Positions 51,973 through 61,566 of a stretch of DNA of 64,000 nucleotides are shown one piece after another. Source of the DNA: Oceanospirillum linum. GTDB taxonomy: Bacteria; Pseudomonadota; Gammaproteobacteria; Pseudomonadales; Halomonadaceae. The notes beneath the pieces are model-generated. The model was not told the DNA's origin, did not search any database, and saw only the letters and a list, made by a program, of their open reading frames with translations. Location of the stretch: assembly GCF_001995095.2 (NCBI RefSeq), contig NZ_MTSD02000003.1:248001-312000 (forward strand), written 5' to 3'. Both the position numbers and the translations under genes were made by a program. Each line of letters opens with the position of its first letter. Positions within the stretch are counted from its first letter, which is position 1.

Positions 51973-53304
51973 CTAAAGTATTCTGAAGCGAGCACTCAGT
52001 GCTTCCAGCTGCGCAGCACGCTCGTGCACGGCACGACTGGCTGACACAATTTGCCCGGTTGCTTCATGGTTTTGCCCAATCTCATGGGCAATATGATCCA
52101 TATCACGAGCCATCTGACTGGTGGTTTGGGCCACTTCACGCACTGCATTCATGATTTCCTGAGTCTGGTCAGCTGCATCACGGGTTTGCTGTTCAATCGC
52201 CCGTACCGCTTCCACGGCCTGGTCACCCAGTTGACGCCCCTGCTCAACCCGACTACGGCTCTGCTGCATTGCGTTAATCACAGACTGAGTATCATTCTGA
52301 ATCGCTTCCACCTTCTCAGTAATATCCGTGGTCGCTTTAACCGTTTGCTCTGCCAGTGTTCGAACCTCATCGGCCACCACAGCAAAACCACGGCCCGCCT
52401 CACCAGCACGTGCTGCTTCAATCGCTGCATTCAATGCCAACAGGTTGGTTTGCTCGGCAACACCAACAATCAGGTCAATCACCACATCAATCTCTTTTGA
52501 GCGGGCTCCCAGGGTTTCAACAGAGCTGCTGGCCTGGTCAACAACCTCAGCAACATCAGCCAGGGCCTGAATCGCCTGACCGATCACCTGAGCACCTTGA
52601 TGGGCTGTTTCAAATGCAGCATTAGCTGAATCACTGACATGCTGAGTGGTATCCGCAACCTGATCTGTTGTAGCACTGATCTCTTCCGTGGCGGCAACCA
52701 GAGAGCTACTGCGGGATGAAATAGAGCTACTGCCATCAACAATCTGCTGCACAGAGGCATCCATACTGTCAGCGGTTTGCTTTAGCTCACTGTTACTCTG
52801 TACAAGATGACTGATCACATCATTTAAGCCACCACTCATGGTATTGGTCGCTACCGCAAGATGGCGGAATTCATCTTTTTCACTGCCTTTCTCTGCCATT
52901 TTATGAGTCAGATCGCCCTTGGCTATCTCACTGAGCACTTCCAGGGTTTGCTTCACGTTACGGCTTATAGATACCGCGACAGAAGCCACAATCGCGCCAA
53001 TAACAATCGCCAGCAACCCACTGCCTAACATGATGGACCAACGAGCAGTCGCAGCAGCTTCAGTCGCATGCTGCTGAGCTTTTACCAGCAGATTCTGTTC
53101 AAGATAGAGCCGGCTTTGCTGCATCTGATCGGAGATCTGTTGGCGATGATCTGCCAGCCGGGAGTCCAGTGCCGCCAGCTCTGTTCTCATTGCCATTACT
53201 TTATGCAGGGTTTCTTCATACTTATCGACAAAAGGGAAAAAGAGATCATCGAAGGCCATCGCCCGAATATCGGTACGCAGCTGGTCCACAGAAGCCTGCA
53301 CCAC
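51973..53304 (-). CDS. Downstream half of the split chemoreceptor
   Basis: 443-residue open frame from GTG 53304 (AGGAG at good distance). Contains the distal sensor helices, TM2, HAMP and the complete MCP signalling domain. If expressed alone it would lack TM1, so its N-terminal sensor half would be on the wrong side of the membrane unless it pairs with part 1. Listed separately because translation restart is credible; see the pseudogene entry for the whole frame. Confidence 0.55.
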
Positions 53305-53310
53305 ACCCCG

Positions 53311-53862
53311 CTACTCCTCTGTCGGGTAGATCAGGAAATCTTTCTCTTTAGCCCGAATTTCCCGTAACCGGGCAGCAAAAGAACCAAACACTTCGATTTC
53401 ACTGAGCAGGGCAGCGGAATGCTCCTCCAGTTGTCCCAACGTACCGCTCTGGGCACTGAGACCATAACTCTTCCGGACCTGGAGCCATTGATCCAACGTT
53501 TTAAGGTAAGGCTCCAACTGAGTTGTTGTATCCGACAACAGAGATTTTGCTCTGTCATCATCCAGATTATCTGCCGCTGTATTGAGCTGATTGATAGCAT
53601 TACTTTTCAGCCCGCCAAGAGCGCTATCGATAGCACTGATGGTTTCTTCGTTCGCGGTTTCCCGCAGTTTGGAAAATTGCAGTAACTGGACTTCAAGATT
53701 ACTGACCTGTTGTGTCACATGACCGAGACGCATCACATGTTCAGATGCACCGGTCAGCAAACCCAGGCTGATAGTAGAATAGAGACCCATCGAGCTAATA
53801 CCCAGAACAACACCCAGGACAACTGCGATAAGCTTTTGACGTAATGAGAGGTTAAAACTCAT
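53311..53862 (-). CDS. Upstream half of the split chemoreceptor
   Basis: 183 residues from ATG 53862 (AAAGGAGCTCTGGCA upstream) to the amber TAG. It holds TM1 (QKLIAVVLGVVLGISSMGLYS) and about 145 residues of the periplasmic helical sensor, with no signalling part. On its own it would be a membrane-anchored sensor fragment. Confidence 0.55.
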   Translation of the reverse strand: MSFNLSLRQKLIAVVLGVVLGISSMGLYSTISLGLLTGASEHVMRLGHVTQQVSNLEVQLLQFSKLRETANEETISAIDSALGGLKSNAINQLNTAADNLDDDRAKSLLSDTTTQLEPYLKTLDQWLQVRKSYGLSAQSGTLGQLEEHSAALLSEIEVFGSFAARLREIRAKEKDFLIYPTEE

Positions 53863-54009: not shown

Positions 54010-56928
54010 TCAAGCCGTTTTTGCAGTACTCAGGCGATCTACCAAATAGATAATAGACTGATACGGAATACCGCTATGCTCACTTAAACCGATCTCACAG
54101 GTTCTGCTGTTGGAATAACCTTCATCACAACCGGCTACCGCATCCGGCAGATCCTTCAAGGCTGAAGCATTCAGCTCCGGCTGAGAAAAACCTTTGTCAC
54201 CAGCAAAGCCACAACAGGTGATATCCGGTGGCGTAATAACCTCATCGGCACAAGCTTTAGCCAGTGCGAGAAATTTATCAGCCAGTCCCATTTTGGTGGT
54301 GCTGCAGGTAATATGCAGCGCAATACGATCTTTCTTAGCAACAATCGTCAGGCGGGGCAGGACAAAGTCATAAATAAATTCGACCTGTTCGTACAAGCGC
54401 AGACGGCTATCCAGTTTTTCTCGCATTTGCATCAGGCAGGGACTGGTGTCACAAAACACCGGATATCGCCCATTGTCGGTTGCGGCCAGCAGAGCCTTAT
54501 TCAGCTGATCGGCTTTCATATCTGCAGCAGCAAACTGACCTTTACTCTGAAATGGCATACCGCAGCACTGATCACCCAGGCGACCAGGGAAGATTACCTC
54601 AAAGCCTGCTTTATTCAGTAGGCTTATGGTAACTTCCGGTGTGGATCTGTCTTCACCCTGATGACGCGCAGCCCCCATAATGCGGGTCGCACAACTGGGC
54701 AGATAAACGACCCGGTTATCATCCGTAAGACCTTGCCTTCCCTCTGTTAAGGAAGTCTCAGTCACGTCCCCCTGCAGACGTTTTTCCGGTTGACTCATCG
54801 GCATACGCTTTAAGATGTCATCGATCTTAGGCGAAGCCTTAGGCATGGACGGTGTCCACTGCTGCACACGATTTCCGGACACTTTACGTGCCATAGATGT
54901 GATCGCCGACATATTCTTACTGCCGACCAAGGTATGCATTCCGTCAGTAACCTTTAGCATGGTACGGGAGGTGTTGGCAACCGTTTCAAAGTGATCCGCA
55001 ACCCATTTCGCAGCTCCCGAGTAACCTTTGTTGCGCTCATGGCGAAGGCTACGGGTGAGATCTCCGGTGTTAATACTAACCGGACAATTCATCTCACAAA
55101 GCCCACAAGCCGCGCAGGTATCAATGCCCTGGTAGTCGTACTCACTAACCAACGCTTTCAGACGATCGGCTTCCTGCTGACTCCCTTGCCCCTGGTCAGC
55201 GGTATCTTCAAGGCGATTAATTTCTCTCCAGATCACGATGCGCTGACGGGGTGTCAGACTGAGATTTCGGGACGGGCAGGAGGACTCACAGAAGCCGCAC
55301 TCGATACACTTATCGATCAGGGAGTCCGCCGGAGGCAGAGGTTTGAGGTTTTCAAGATGCAGATTCGGATTGCGGGTCAGAATCACATCAGGATTCAGCA
55401 GATGATCCGGGTCAAACAGTGCCTTGAGCTGCCACATCAGATCATAAGCATCTCTACCCCATTCAAGCTCTACATAGGGCGCCATATTGCGGCCGGTGCC
55501 ATGTTCCGCTTTTAGTGACCCCTTATACTTCACCGCCACCAGATTCGCCACATCATCCATCAGTTGCTGATAGCGAGTGATCTCTTCCGGGTCATCAAAC
55601 CCCTGGGTAAAGACGAAGTGCAGATTACCTTCCAGCGCGTGACCAAACAGCAGCGCTTCATCGTAGCCGTATTTGCGGAACACCTGCTGCAGCTCCAGCA
55701 CACCTTCCGCCAGCTGCTCAATGGGAAAAGCAACATCTTCGATAATCACCGTAGTACCGGTCATCCGTACAGCGCCCACTGCAGGAAAAAGTCCCTTACG
55801 GATCTTCCAGTAGAGGTCATAAGTGGCGCTGTCTTCGGTAAACCCGATAGGCGCAACGGTTTCAATATCGCCAATCGCAGCCGTCACTTGCGCCAGTTTC
55901 TGCTCCAGCTCCTCACGCTCACTGGCTCGGACATCCACCAGAAGGGCTGCGGCATTATCTCCCAGCGTTTTCAGAATCTCCGGCATACCGGGCTTATCTT
56001 CCACAGCCCGAAGGCCAGCACGGTCAATCAACTCAACCGCAGCCACCGGCGTTGGCTTCATCGCGGTTACCGCACGACAGGTGGACTCCATATCCGGAAA
56101 GAAGATCATCGCAGCGGCTTTCAGAGGATGTTCGATCACCGTGCGGTAGGTCACTTCGCTGATAAAGCCCAAAGTACCTTCAGAGCCGATCATCAGGTGC
56201 TTCAGAATATCAAAGGGATCACTGTAATCCACCAGCGAATTCAGACTATAGCCCGTGGTGTTCTTCAGTCGGTATTTATGGCGGATCAGGTCAGCCAGTT
56301 GCTGATTATCACGGGTTTTTTCCCCCAATGTTTTCAATTCAGCCAACAGGCCGGCATGACTTTGCTCAAAAGCTTTACGGCTAGCCTCATCGGCGGTATC
56401 CAATAACGTACCATCCGCCAGAATGACCCGCATATGTTCAACTGTATTATAGCTGTTCTGGGCGGTGCCACAGCACATGCCGCTGGCGTTATTAGCAGCA
56501 ATACCACCGATCATAGCCGCATTAATAGACGCCGGATCAGGGCCGATTTTTCTCTGATAGGGTGCTAATAACTGGTTCGCTTTTCCACCGATAACACCGG
56601 GCTGCAGGGAAACCGAGTCACCCTGGTCATGAATATGATAACCGCGCCAGTTACTGCTCAGCTGAACCAGCACCGAGTCGGTCACCGCCTGACCGGACAG
56701 GCTGGTTCCGGCGGCACGAAAGGTCACCGGCAACTGACGGGCGGCCGTCGCTTTCAGTACTGAAATCACCTCCTGCTCACTATCAACCCGCACCACTAAC
56801 TGGGGGACCAGCCGGTAAAAACTGGCATCGGTACCATAAGCCAGTGTGCGCAATTCGTCATGGATCAGACGCTCCTGACTGATAAACCCGCTCAGTTCGT
56901 TATACAGCTCTTGATAGGCTTGCTTCAT
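54010..56928 (-). CDS. FAD/Fe-S D-lactate dehydrogenase, Dld-II type
   Basis: 972 residues, GlcD plus GlpC-like fusion. FAD-linked oxidase N-terminal half: FRAAGTSLSGQAV (~50), PASINAAMIGGIAANNASG; FAD_oxidase_C ~ 260-520 (GHALEGNLHFV). Two 4Fe-4S motifs CIECGFCESSCP (~537) and CAACGLCEMNCP (~600), then CCG-domains (QCCGMPF ~775, CCGFAGDKGF ~920). It matches the Dld-II enzyme of Shewanella, next to lldEFG, and should oxidise D-lactate (or a D-2-hydroxyacid) and pass electrons to quinone. ATG start, 81 bases after lutC; last gene of the operon. Confidence 0.9.
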   Translation of the reverse strand: MKQAYQELYNELSGFISQERLIHDELRTLAYGTDASFYRLVPQLVVRVDSEQEVISVLKATAARQLPVTFRAAGTSLSGQAVTDSVLVQLSSNWRGYHIHDQGDSVSLQPGVIGGKANQLLAPYQRKIGPDPASINAAMIGGIAANNASGMCCGTAQNSYNTVEHMRVILADGTLLDTADEASRKAFEQSHAGLLAELKTLGEKTRDNQQLADLIRHKYRLKNTTGYSLNSLVDYSDPFDILKHLMIGSEGTLGFISEVTYRTVIEHPLKAAAMIFFPDMESTCRAVTAMKPTPVAAVELIDRAGLRAVEDKPGMPEILKTLGDNAAALLVDVRASEREELEQKLAQVTAAIGDIETVAPIGFTEDSATYDLYWKIRKGLFPAVGAVRMTGTTVIIEDVAFPIEQLAEGVLELQQVFRKYGYDEALLFGHALEGNLHFVFTQGFDDPEEITRYQQLMDDVANLVAVKYKGSLKAEHGTGRNMAPYVELEWGRDAYDLMWQLKALFDPDHLLNPDVILTRNPNLHLENLKPLPPADSLIDKCIECGFCESSCPSRNLSLTPRQRIVIWREINRLEDTADQGQGSQQEADRLKALVSEYDYQGIDTCAACGLCEMNCPVSINTGDLTRSLRHERNKGYSGAAKWVADHFETVANTSRTMLKVTDGMHTLVGSKNMSAITSMARKVSGNRVQQWTPSMPKASPKIDDILKRMPMSQPEKRLQGDVTETSLTEGRQGLTDDNRVVYLPSCATRIMGAARHQGEDRSTPEVTISLLNKAGFEVIFPGRLGDQCCGMPFQSKGQFAAADMKADQLNKALLAATDNGRYPVFCDTSPCLMQMREKLDSRLRLYEQVEFIYDFVLPRLTIVAKKDRIALHITCSTTKMGLADKFLALAKACADEVITPPDITCCGFAGDKGFSQPELNASALKDLPDAVAGCDEGYSNSRTCEIGLSEHSGIPYQSIIYLVDRLSTAKTA

Positions 56929-57009: not shown

Positions 57010-57666
57010 TTACTGGCGCACCAGTACGACCAGTTCTTTCGGGCCATGTACGCCATAGGCCAAGGTTTGTTCAATATCGGCGGTCTTGGATGGGCCGGAG
57101 ATCAGCAGCGCATTGGTTGGCATCCCTACAGATACCCAATCTTCTGACATGATCACCTCATGGAAGGTGTTTTTCAGCTGGCTGGCATCGACCACAGCGA
57201 AATGGATCGGTGGCACCAGTGTCATCAGGCGGGGCTGGTCATTGTCTGGCCAAAGCACCAAAGTGCCGGTCTCGGCAATAGCACTACGCACATCGGTAAT
57301 CGCAGCATCAACACCGGAGAACAGCTCCGCTTTCCAGCCTTCAATGGGCTGGTCATAGGCCAGCAGCTCCACATCACCATCCGCAAGAGCTTCCCGGGTA
57401 TCAACGCCCACCTGAGCTTTCAGAGGAGTAAGCAGGTTTTTTACCTGCTTCTCAGCTAACAGCTCTTTCAGTTTTTCCAGCCAGTTGTCTTTACTAACCC
57501 GATGCACTTCCCCATGCACCGATTCGATCTTTTGCTGAAAGAGGTCCAGCTTTTCACTGTCACTCCACTGCTTCTCCGTTACTACGGAAAAGTCACTGAC
57601 AGGAGCAGTCAAAGCGCCATCACGGCGATGACGCAGACGATTTAAAATAGCATCACGGGCGCTCAT
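57010..57666 (-). CDS. lutC: L-lactate utilisation protein LutC
   Basis: 218 residues of the LUD family (LutC/LldG). SAIAETGTLVLWPDNDQPRLMTLVPPIHFAVVD is the conserved LUD core (~125-160); STP-like tail PSKTADIEQTLAYGVHGP near the end. It forms, with LutA and LutB, the enzyme oxidising L-lactate to pyruvate. ATG 57666 overlaps the lutB stop by one base (TGATG), with GGAG upstream, so the two genes are coupled. A GTG three bases earlier is not needed. Confidence 0.93.
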   Translation of the reverse strand: MSARDAILNRLRHRRDGALTAPVSDFSVVTEKQWSDSEKLDLFQQKIESVHGEVHRVSKDNWLEKLKELLAEKQVKNLLTPLKAQVGVDTREALADGDVELLAYDQPIEGWKAELFSGVDAAITDVRSAIAETGTLVLWPDNDQPRLMTLVPPIHFAVVDASQLKNTFHEVIMSEDWVSVGMPTNALLISGPSKTADIEQTLAYGVHGPKELVVLVRQ

Positions 57667-59165
57667 CACAGATCTCCAGCGTTTTCTCGTTGATTGTTGT
57701 CCGAAGCCTGTACCTGCTGACGGGTCTTCATCTGCTGATGCAGTGTCGTTTTCGCCAGCTTGGGCATGGTGCGACAGCTCATCCAGGCGCCCATACCTTT
57801 ACTTAACAGCGCATCCGGCAACAAACCCCACAGAACCGTGGCAAGGCCTGTTCCAGAACGGTACAGCCCCCCATGCTTATGCATTTTCGCCCAGCCTTTC
57901 CAGATCAGTGGCTCCATTCCTTTACGCTTAGCGCCACGCCCTTTTACAACGGAATTGTCGTGACGGTGATCCCCCGCCACAGATTCTTCACGCAGCCGCA
58001 CCAGCAACTTAGGTATCGGAATTTTCACCGGACAGACTTCACCACAGGCCCCGCAGAGAGAAGACGCGCTGGGCAGATCTTTGGCATCATCCAGCCCGGC
58101 CAGATGGGGCATCAGGATTTTGCCGATCGGCCCCGGATAGGTATAGCCATAAGCATGCCCACCAATGCGGGTATAAACAGGGCAATGATTCATGCAGGCA
58201 CCGCAGCGGATACAGCGCAAAGTATCTAACAGCTCATCATCCTGATAGATATTGGAGCGGCCACCATCCACCAGTACCAGATGCACCTCCTCCGGCCCAT
58301 CCAGCTCACCCTCTTTGCGCGGGCTTGAGATCATATTAAAGTAGGTGGTGATATGCTGACCGGTAGCCGAACGGGTCAAAAGTGACAGCAGAGGCGCCAC
58401 ATCCTCCAGGTTCTCCACCACTTTCTCGATACCAGTCACGGCAATATGTACCGGCGGAACCGTCGTGGTCAGACGGCCGTTACCTTCGTTTTCCACCAGA
58501 CACAGGGTGCCGGTTTCCGCCACCGCAAAGTTAACACCGGAAACACCCACATCAGCTTTTTCAAAGCGCTCCCGTAACTGCTGCCGGGCTTCTGCTGTCA
58601 GGTACTCCACATCACGGGATTTTTGGGTGCCGGTTTTCTCATGCAGCAGATCGGAGATCTGCTCCGTGTTCTTGTGAATCGCTGGCATAATAATATGCGA
58701 CGGCGTCTCTTCCGCCAGCTGAACGATATATTCGCCCAGATCAGATTCCAGCGCTTCGATACCATGCTCTTCAAGGTAGTGGTTCAGCTCCATCTCTTCG
58801 CTGACCATAGACTTACCTTTGATAACGCTTTTAGCATTTTTTCCGTTGCAGATATCGAGAATAATTTTGCAGGCTTCATCGCCGTTTTCCGCCCAGTGCA
58901 CCTTCACACCCTGGGCGATCAGGTTAGCTTCCAGCTTTTCCAGCAGCTCCGGCAATTTGGATAACGCACGCAGGCGGATTGCGGCGGCTAACTCACGGGT
59001 TCGTTCCAGCTCCTCATCCGATGGAAACGCCTGCTGGCGTTTCTCCATCAGACCATCCATCGCTTTACGGAAGTTGGCCCGGATCTGCGGATTGGTAATG
59101 GCGTCATGCACTCTGGGATGAAACTCCCCGACACCATTTTGCTGAGGTGAGGCATTATGACCCAT
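57666..59165 (-). CDS. lutB: L-lactate utilisation iron-sulfur protein LutB
   Basis: 499 residues. LUD domain in the first ~300 (GVNFAVAETGTLCLVENEGNGRLTTTVPP), then ferredoxin-like part with CIRCGACMNHCPVYTRIGGHAYG (~332) and CGACGEVCPVKIPIP (~388), and a LutB C-terminal region. Carries two 4Fe-4S clusters in the LutABC complex. The ATG at 59165 (MGHNASPQ) has GGAG eight bases before it and is preferred over the GTG at 59201. It overlaps the lutA stop by 11 bases. Confidence 0.95.
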   Translation of the reverse strand: MGHNASPQQNGVGEFHPRVHDAITNPQIRANFRKAMDGLMEKRQQAFPSDEELERTRELAAAIRLRALSKLPELLEKLEANLIAQGVKVHWAENGDEACKIILDICNGKNAKSVIKGKSMVSEEMELNHYLEEHGIEALESDLGEYIVQLAEETPSHIIMPAIHKNTEQISDLLHEKTGTQKSRDVEYLTAEARQQLRERFEKADVGVSGVNFAVAETGTLCLVENEGNGRLTTTVPPVHIAVTGIEKVVENLEDVAPLLSLLTRSATGQHITTYFNMISSPRKEGELDGPEEVHLVLVDGGRSNIYQDDELLDTLRCIRCGACMNHCPVYTRIGGHAYGYTYPGPIGKILMPHLAGLDDAKDLPSASSLCGACGEVCPVKIPIPKLLVRLREESVAGDHRHDNSVVKGRGAKRKGMEPLIWKGWAKMHKHGGLYRSGTGLATVLWGLLPDALLSKGMGAWMSCRTMPKLAKTTLHQQMKTRQQVQASDNNQRENAGDL

Positions 59166-59931
59166 GGCAGCGTCTCCAAAGAAAACTGGCGATATGTTCA
59201 CCTTTAAAATGGCTATCCTGGCCTTGGTTTTCCATCTGCTCTGCAGCGCCGGTAATATTCATCATACAACCACAGTCACTGGTGATCAGGGTATCGGCAC
59301 CGGTGGCAGCAATCGCTGCAACTTTATCGGTCACCATCGCTTCGGATATTTCAGGATGCCGAACCGAAAACGCGCCGCCAAACCCGCAACACTCCTTTAT
59401 CCGTTCCTGCTCAACCACTTCAACATGGGCCATTTTCCCCAGCAGCGACGGACCGACATCGCCCAAACCCATCTCACGACGGGCGCTGCAGGAGGTATGC
59501 ATGGCAACCCTGACCGGCTCGCCTTTATCTTCAATCTGCATATGACAGACATGCAGTAAAAATTCCGTCAGCTCATAAATACGACCCGAAATTTCCCGCG
59601 CCAGCGCCTCTTCAGGATAGCCCGCAAACAGTTCAGGATAATGTTCCCGCATCATGCCGGCACAGGAGCCGGACGGCAGTACGATCAGATAGTCCTCAGG
59701 AAACAACGCCAACTGAGCCGCTGCGACTTCACGGGCCTGGTCGTGATAACCCGAAGTATAAGCGGGCTGACCACAACAGGTCTGATCCTGAGGAAAAATA
59801 ACCTCGATGCCTTCACGCTCTAACAACTGGATACCGGCCATGCCAGCATCAGGATAGAAAAGATCCACCAGACAAGTGCCAAAGAAGTAAACCTTCTTAG
59901 GTTTTGGGGGATAAAGCTTAATACTGCTCAT
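59155..59931 (-). CDS. lutA: L-lactate utilisation protein LutA
   Basis: 258 residues: two CCG domains (TCCGQPAYTSGYHDQA ~62 and ECCGFGGAFSVRHPEISEAM ~192), which bind Fe-S clusters in the glycolate-oxidase/heterodisulfide reductase style. First gene of lutABC. Preceded by 237 bases after dctM, so it may have its own promoter. ATG start with a modest GAGTG upstream. Acts in the cytoplasm with LutB and LutC. Confidence 0.94.
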   Translation of the reverse strand: MSSIKLYPPKPKKVYFFGTCLVDLFYPDAGMAGIQLLEREGIEVIFPQDQTCCGQPAYTSGYHDQAREVAAAQLALFPEDYLIVLPSGSCAGMMREHYPELFAGYPEEALAREISGRIYELTEFLLHVCHMQIEDKGEPVRVAMHTSCSARREMGLGDVGPSLLGKMAHVEVVEQERIKECCGFGGAFSVRHPEISEAMVTDKVAAIAATGADTLITSDCGCMMNITGAAEQMENQGQDSHFKGEHIASFLWRRCHGS

Positions 59932-60168: not shown

Positions 60169-61554
60169 TTAACCGTATGCCATAGCTGGGAGCCAGAGCA
60201 CCAGCTCAGGCCAGGCAACAATAATTGCCAGTGCCAGCAGCTGAATCATGATGAAAGGTACAACGCCTTTGTAGATATCAGACAGTTTTACATCCGGAGG
60301 GCAAACACCTTTCAGGTAGAAGATAGAGAAGCCCACCGGCGGCGTCAGGAAAGATGTCTGCAAGGCCATCGCCACTAACATCACAAACCAAACCAGCTCA
60401 GGATTATCCACAACGCCGTAACCATCAATATCCAGGCCCAGGGCAGAGATCACAGGAGCAAGCAAAGGTAACGCAATCAGGGTGATTTCGATCCAGTCCA
60501 AAAAGAACCCCAGCAGGAAGATGATCGCCAATACACAGGCAATAATGCCGTAAGTGCCAAATGGCAGACTCGTCAGCCAATGCTCAATCAACTCATCACC
60601 ACCCAGCTCACGCAGTACCAGAGCAAAACAGGTCGCGCCAAGAAATACGGCAAAAATGTAAGCTGTGGTGTTATACGATCCCTGCGCAACTTCTTTAAAA
60701 ACTTTCAGGCTCAGTTTTTTGTTATGCCAGGCCAACAAAGTTGCCCCCAGCGCACCAACACCGGACGCTTCCGTCGCGGTCGCAATACCGGCAAAGATAG
60801 AACCCAGTACCGCAACAATCAGGGCAACCGGTGGCAGAATACTTTTGAACACCGCAAGGATCATCTTCATCTCAACCGGCTTGGCATCTGCCGGTAGCGG
60901 TGCAGCAGAGGGTTTAAATACACCGACCGCCAGAATAAAGACCACGTACATAAAGCCCAGCATCAGCCCCGGAATCACTGCTCCCATGAACAGATCGCCC
61001 ACAGACAGCGCCAGCTGATCCGCCATAATCACCAGCATGATAGAGGGTGGAATAAGAATACCCAGCGTACCGGCAGACGCGATGGTGCCTAGCGCCAACG
61101 GTTTGGAGTATTTCTGCTCCAGCATCGCGGGTAGTGACATCAGCCCCAGCAGTACAACAGACGCGCCGACAATACCGGTGGAAGCCGCCAGAATAATACC
61201 AATCAAAGTCACCGTGATCGCTAAGCCACCACGGACACGGCCAAACAACTGCTGAATCGAATTCATCAGTTTTTCCGCCACACCGGAGCGATCCAGCATG
61301 ATACCCATAAAGATAAACATAGGCAGGGCCACCATGACCCAGTTATCCATGATCTTATATATTCGGTTCACCACCAGGCTCAGGGTGAGCATATCCAGCC
61401 CGGTAAAGGTGTCCAGATAGATATCCGACAGGTAACCGATAAAGGCAAACGCTACGCCAACGCCGCCCAGAACAAATGCCACCGGAAAACCGGTGAACAG
61501 CAACGCGATGAAGCTAAGGAACATCGCGATGACAAGAATCTCATTTACTTCCAT
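60169..61554 (-). CDS. dctM: TRAP transporter large permease
   Basis: 461 residues, DctM family, about 12 TM segments. Typical patches: FPVAFVLGGVGVAFAFIG at the start, GRVRGGLAITVTLIGIILAASTGIVGASVV, GTIASAGTLGILIPPSIMLVI, and LGFFLDWIEITLIALPLLAP. Forms the ion-coupled channel with DctQ and takes substrate from DctP. It lies 13 bases after dctQ. Context (lactate genes on the same strand) points to lactate or a 2-oxo/2-hydroxy acid as cargo. Confidence 0.95.
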   Translation of the reverse strand: MEVNEILVIAMFLSFIALLFTGFPVAFVLGGVGVAFAFIGYLSDIYLDTFTGLDMLTLSLVVNRIYKIMDNWVMVALPMFIFMGIMLDRSGVAEKLMNSIQQLFGRVRGGLAITVTLIGIILAASTGIVGASVVLLGLMSLPAMLEQKYSKPLALGTIASAGTLGILIPPSIMLVIMADQLALSVGDLFMGAVIPGLMLGFMYVVFILAVGVFKPSAAPLPADAKPVEMKMILAVFKSILPPVALIVAVLGSIFAGIATATEASGVGALGATLLAWHNKKLSLKVFKEVAQGSYNTTAYIFAVFLGATCFALVLRELGGDELIEHWLTSLPFGTYGIIACVLAIIFLLGFFLDWIEITLIALPLLAPVISALGLDIDGYGVVDNPELVWFVMLVAMALQTSFLTPPVGFSIFYLKGVCPPDVKLSDIYKGVVPFIMIQLLALAIIVAWPELVLWLPAMAYG

Positions 61555-61566
61555 CTGACGAACCCC

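Follow-up and report, generated by a model that had tools for sequence, protein, structure and literature searches.

An in-frame TAG, probably a very recent nonsense mutation, interrupts a chemoreceptor gene of Oceanospirillum linum

The genome of Oceanospirillum linum contains a chemoreceptor gene whose frame is broken at codon 184 by a lone TAG, and we consider it probable that this HBM-type receptor gene acquired a nonsense mutation very recently in the one strain sequenced. The gene lies in the window, by which we mean the whole stretch of 64,000 nucleotides that was analyzed (contig NZ_MTSD02000003.1, positions 248,001 to 312,000). In the course of events that we favor, a single nucleotide substitution would very recently have made the codon of a non-conserved residue into TAG. 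Translation of the mutant gene would then mostly end after TM1 and the first sensor helices, leaving a non-signaling fragment and a strain that makes no receptor, or very little of it. A GTG downstream may yield some C-terminal fragment, by way of a motif inherited by chance from sense codons. Such a chain would carry about 90 residues ahead of TM2, a tail that it would have to export without TM1, so a working receptor is unlikely to result. The loss would probably be tolerated, since the genome holds some fifty other chemoreceptor genes (54 MCP-domain matches, one of them a weak second match apparently inside a gene already listed). As it stands, the case is one of a single lost or silenced sensor in a genome well supplied with others.

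The preliminary description of this DNA, made from its letters alone, had set out the frame, the TAG, an AGGAG, a nine-base spacing, and a GTG, and re-reading of the minus-strand sequence confirmed all of these (Table 1). It had also taken the two halves, which share a frame, to form one complete receptor. Each of them can be aligned without an internal gap to intact orthologues 628-629 residues long, which marks this as a real gene rather than a fortuitous pairing of open reading frames (ORFs). Its 630 codons include two in-frame stops only, the TAG at codon 184 and the terminal TAG. In Pfam searches the piece after the internal stop matched the MCP signaling domain strongly and HAMP just below the cut-off, and the piece before it, with the sensor, gave no convincing match. 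TM2, HAMP, and the signaling domain are all encoded downstream of the TAG and are thus absent from the product of the first frame.

Table 1. Features of the interrupted chemoreceptor gene and of its neighbors in the O. linum window
Feature	Position in window	Strand	Remarks
Chemoreceptor gene, HBM-type by predicted fold (TM1, helical sensor, TM2, HAMP, MCP signaling domain)	51973..53862	-	630 codons, internal and terminal stops counted; start ATG at 53862, read down to 51973
N-terminal piece of 183 aa (TM1, then the sensor helices as far as the 179-181 turn)	53311..53862	-	Helices placed by modeling the O. sanctuarii orthologue
In-frame TAG, codon 184	53311..53313	-	Alignment; Gln (3/5) or His (2/5) in congeneric orthologues
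AGGAG, Shine-Dalgarno-like	53314..53318	-	Sequence; spans two Glu codons; also in the intact sister gene
In-frame GTG, codon 187, possible restart	53302..53304	-	Sequence
C-terminal piece that a restart would give, 443 aa (remaining sensor helices, TM2, HAMP, MCP signaling domain)	51973..53304	-	Frame and Pfam
Terminator of the chemoreceptor gene, TAG	51973..51975	-	Sequence
GlcD-like FAD/Fe-S dehydrogenase, upstream neighbor	54010-56928	-
LUD-like protein, upstream	57010-57669	-	Weak partial match
LutB/LldF, upstream	57666-59201	-
DctM-type TRAP permease, beyond LutB	60172-61566

A protein search over 58 genomes returned matches in 10. All 15 of the other matched genes, O. linum's own paralogue included, are uninterrupted frames of 623-667 codons, although one of them (genome G007) covers the query only partially. 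The idea of a conserved two-ORF receptor was therefore rejected. Among the matches are five congeneric orthologues, one in each of the five other Oceanospirillum genomes searched, and each is a single intact frame beside the same dehydrogenase gene. Compared with the window protein they lack at most one residue each, at the extreme end, and over the N-terminal piece identity is 77% to O. sanctuarii, 68% to O. maris, and 60% to O. sediminis. The alignment settles which sense codon the TAG replaces, a point the preliminary description had raised: it stands for a Gln or His codon (Gln, Gln, Gln, His, and His in the five orthologues). The codon of the sister species, O. sanctuarii, is one nucleotide substitution away from TAG. 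The site is thus a variable one, and no simpler change could have produced the stop. None of the five congeneric orthologues has the internal TAG, and four of them share the terminal one.

How long the stop has been in place can be estimated only coarsely, as pairwise dS to the sister is about 1.6; it reaches 2.5 to O. sediminis and lies beyond estimation to O. maris, these being the three orthologues compared. With dS at 1.6 or higher, dating by dN/dS was dropped and a branch comparison of amino-acid changes was used alone, counted by parsimony with O. maris as the outgroup. The window branch had 16 changes against 11 on the sister branch before the TAG, and 10 against 9 after it. The neighboring dehydrogenase (36 versus 19) and the universal-stress-like protein (3 versus 2) also changed more on the window branch, so the window lineage may be somewhat faster overall. 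Compared with the sister lineage, amino-acid change shows no significant excess before or after the TAG, which supports the earlier proposal that the event is recent or tolerated. Set against the neutral expectation, the upper 95% excess allows at most about 4% of the branch to have been unconstrained before the TAG and about 1% after it, a bound made rough by saturating dS and parsimony counts.

The further claim that nothing else in the frame had decayed holds for stops and indels, of which there are no others, but not fully for residues. Five private changes fall in columns that are invariant in the five intact orthologues, and four of the five lie in residues 1-34, the TM1 region. Changed invariant columns thus number 4/22 in residues 1-34 versus 1/308 elsewhere (Fisher p = 7e-5, in a post hoc test). 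The hydropathy of TM1 is the lowest of the six proteins, at 2.09 versus 2.35-2.58. Because the test was chosen after the data were seen, we take this as a hint that TM1 is drifting.

To place the break within the receptor, we used an AlphaFold model of the first 340 residues of the O. sanctuarii orthologue, built with three sequences (pLDDT 78.2, pTM 0.63). The predicted sensor is a two-module, all-helical periplasmic structure of about 250 residues between TM1 and TM2, and the model has helices at residues 7-67, 75-99, 103-133, 140-156, 160-178, 182-201, and 205-314. Codon 184 falls at the start of helix 182-201, directly after the turn at 179-181. The best four matches of the model in the PDB are the McpS ligand-binding domain with malate or succinate (2YFA/2YFB), at a modest E of 4e-4 to 1e-3, TMt 0.58-0.59, and 11-12% identity; the TorS sensor domain ranks 18th, yet with a higher TMt of 0.70. 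A sequence search for a solved sensor structure gave only chemoreceptor matches in the signaling domain and weak, unrelated coiled coils. Pfam contains an HBM model, and no HBM profile was listed for the window gene or for two orthologues at E up to 10. The HBM-type assignment of the preliminary description is therefore upheld at the level of predicted fold, where McpS is the best match, and finds no counterpart at the level of sequence profiles; we regard the sensor as HBM/McpS-like by its modeled fold.

The likeness to HBM chemoreceptors (McpS, McpQ, McpK) extends beyond the fold, predicted for the sister, that is nearest to McpS: the window gene has the TM-sensor-TM-HAMP-MCP architecture and a carboxylate-metabolism neighborhood. 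Unlike them, it has about 12% identity to McpS in the structural alignment, no listed HBM profile match, and an internal stop. HBM receptors are linked to organic acids (PMC5126104). The dehydrogenase adjoins the receptor gene in all five congeners (re-checked in three), which makes a carboxylate such as lactate a reasonable guess for the ligand. From the gene neighborhood, we would say that the ligand is probably of this kind and is handled by the adjacent lactate-oxidation-like genes.

The preliminary description saw in the AGGAG and the GTG nine bases after it a built-in restart signal. The intact gene of the sister has this AGGAG too, and likewise the in-frame GTG at codon 187, so the motif predates the stop and did not evolve for the split. 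The other four orthologues gave no such motif at this position. Two of them have a different one, ten codons earlier and with a shorter spacing, in which AAGGA precedes an in-frame TTG or ATG (codon 177) by four bases, so Shine-Dalgarno-like starts come and go in this stretch of the gene. As a background, we asked how often a codon in the window's 44 longest non-overlapping ORFs has, in the ten codons downstream of it, a five-base Shine-Dalgarno core with an in-frame start. An equally good restart follows 472 of 18,181 codons (2.6%); for Gln codons the figure is 31 of 955 (3.2%). By this count AGGAG-N9-GTG is only mildly unusual and no more than chance can supply, and the notion of a restart by design is not supported. 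The restart may nonetheless be in use. The RNA around the stop folds with z = 0.77, which is nothing unusual, and a structured recoding signal was accordingly dropped as a candidate. The motif carries a caution for similar cases, as an in-frame restart beside a stop looks designed and yet here predates the stop, and chance supplies one at a few per cent of codons.

We also considered whether UAG might be decoded in this organism, amber suppression having been offered earlier as one explanation. ARAGORN called all of the 66 tRNA genes found, with 150 of 192 candidates scored. None of the 66 has a CUA anticodon that would read UAG, in a list that is incomplete (no tRNA-Ile was called). A pattern search for a CUA anticodon loop gave four matches; one falls within a tRNA-Arg(UCU) gene, and at the other three there is no tRNA. 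RF1 is present in the genome, and TAG is an ordinary terminator: of the 44 window ORFs it closes 10, including both pieces of the chemoreceptor gene. On these grounds an amber suppressor or a reassignment of UAG was rejected.

Single lesions elsewhere in the genome were sought by comparison with syntenic O. sanctuarii DNA, covering 41 ORFs of the window and 400 kb of contig C109 (264 ORFs, including antisense shadows). The codon-184 TAG was the sole event called among the 41 window ORFs; a scan that admits short overlapping ORFs gives further window rows, all set aside, at ORF ends and in two ORFs of 130 residues. The automatic scans flagged numerous antisense or extended ORFs (35 rows from the C109 stretch, more in a second scan). 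By judgment, stops within the first 44 residues or the last 12 were excluded, as were those in shadow-like ORFs under 200 residues. Five rows in four longer ORFs were also excluded for their nearness to an end or gap: residues 46 of 266, 60 of 467, 45 and 52 of 233, and 691 of 703. What was left after sorting is the codon-184 TAG, a TAA in another chemoreceptor, and two frameshifts.

This second chemoreceptor (G000:C109:646500-654500) has a lone in-frame TAA at C109:650364, 93 codons before its end; both relatives that were checked, O. sanctuarii and O. maris, have an intact gene with Gln at the site. The frameshifts relative to O. sanctuarii affect a PAS-GGDEF protein near C109:949924 and a glycosyltransferase near C109:663781, both named from their sequences. 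A third chemoreceptor, an Aer-like PAS-MCP protein (G000:C231:59000-63000), is frameshifted near C231:59.7 kb, whereas every one of the five congeners has a single frame of 533-542 codons as its best match. When the comparison with the sister was reversed, neither set of ORFs yielded a frameshift call (0/275 and 0/43); four nonsense rows, three in the 275 ORFs and one in the 43, were set aside as lying near ORF starts or, in one case, in an ORF that fails the coding filter. Chemoreceptors were scrutinized harder than other genes, and we claim no enrichment among them. The scattered single-lesion genes fit either recent loss of redundant sensors or base-calling errors.

Some points weigh against a nonsense allele. 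Constraint on both sides of the TAG would also fit a gene that is still read through or restarted, the cluster of changes in TM1 could mean that the N-terminal piece alone is drifting, and base-calling errors could explain the other single-lesion genes of the assembly equally well. This last point leads to the main rival, a base-calling or assembly error in a strain whose living gene is intact, which we judge unlikely although by no means negligible. It gains from the draft state of the assembly (285 contigs), from the other lone lesions in well-conserved genes (the chemoreceptor TAA and the Aer-like, PAS-GGDEF, and glycosyltransferase frameshifts), and from the absence of called frameshifts in the reverse direction. 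Lone substitution errors are, however, rarer than indel errors in many assemblies. Moreover, both nonsense lesions sit at positions where relatives have Gln, which fits ordinary mutation.

Other readings take the gene to be expressed across or around its stop. Two chains might be made, one ending at the TAG and the other restarting at the GTG at 53304, so that a TM1 plus part-sensor chain and a TM2-HAMP-signaling chain reassemble or act separately. The AGGAG at its nine-base distance, the modeled position of the break at an inter-helix turn, the constraint after the TAG, and the post hoc clustering of private changes in TM1 would all suit this arrangement. We nevertheless think it quite improbable, as the motif is inherited from sense codons, is shared with the intact sister, was not found at this position in the four other orthologues, and has a background of 2.6% of codons; the local RNA is not unusually structured, and the C-terminal chain would have to translocate its residues ahead of TM2 without TM1. 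The option of separate chains raised in the preliminary description keeps its motif, but that motif is older than the stop and 0/15 of the other matched genes are split. A related scheme, in which the accidental, pre-existing AGGAG-GTG now starts a TM2-HAMP-signaling chain that is under selection and TM1 drifts in a short N-terminal chain, has in our estimation a very slim chance of being right. Low-level synthesis of the full-length receptor by near-cognate decoding of the TAG would account for the constraint kept on both sides and could draw on the tRNA-Gln genes present. We find such readthrough very improbable: no CUA-anticodon tRNA is among the 66 called, RF1 is present, TAG also ends this very gene, and the internal TAG is shared by none of the five congeners.

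Related systems have been described. One study presents in-frame stops in constrained bacterial genes as a widespread feature that is frequently short-lived, and gives a TAG/CAG family as an example (PMC7918605), a point in favor of readthrough. The genes treated there resemble ours in having a lone TAG in a conserved frame with constraint on both sides. They differ in that here the stop occurs in one of six genomes and is not shared by orthologues, so the argument that the study builds on shared stops does not apply. For two chains the precedent is CetA/CetB, a bipartite energy-taxis receptor with its chemoreceptor domains in two chains (PMC2628428). That receptor is divided at a domain border, with PAS on one side and TM-HAMP-signaling on the other, whereas in O. 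linum the break falls inside the sensor fold, in one genome, and the 15 other matched genes are single frames. If the two-chain reading were true, the gene would offer a rare view of fission at an early stage, in a transmembrane receptor that is passing from one chain to two. Among the Oceanospirillum chemotaxis literature listed, no title concerned the window chemoreceptor gene, which is not proof that it is unreported.

The genome also encodes what appear to be CetB/CetA-like receptors, made of a PAS-like ORF and a TM-MCP ORF that comes directly after it, at C231:206000-210000 (207 kb) and C210:239500-243000 (241 kb). For the MCP partner at C231:207 kb, the best match in all five congeners is likewise a short, separate frame of 439-490 codons; this apparent two-chain receptor thus seems to keep its arrangement in the relatives, and the split at codon 184 does not.
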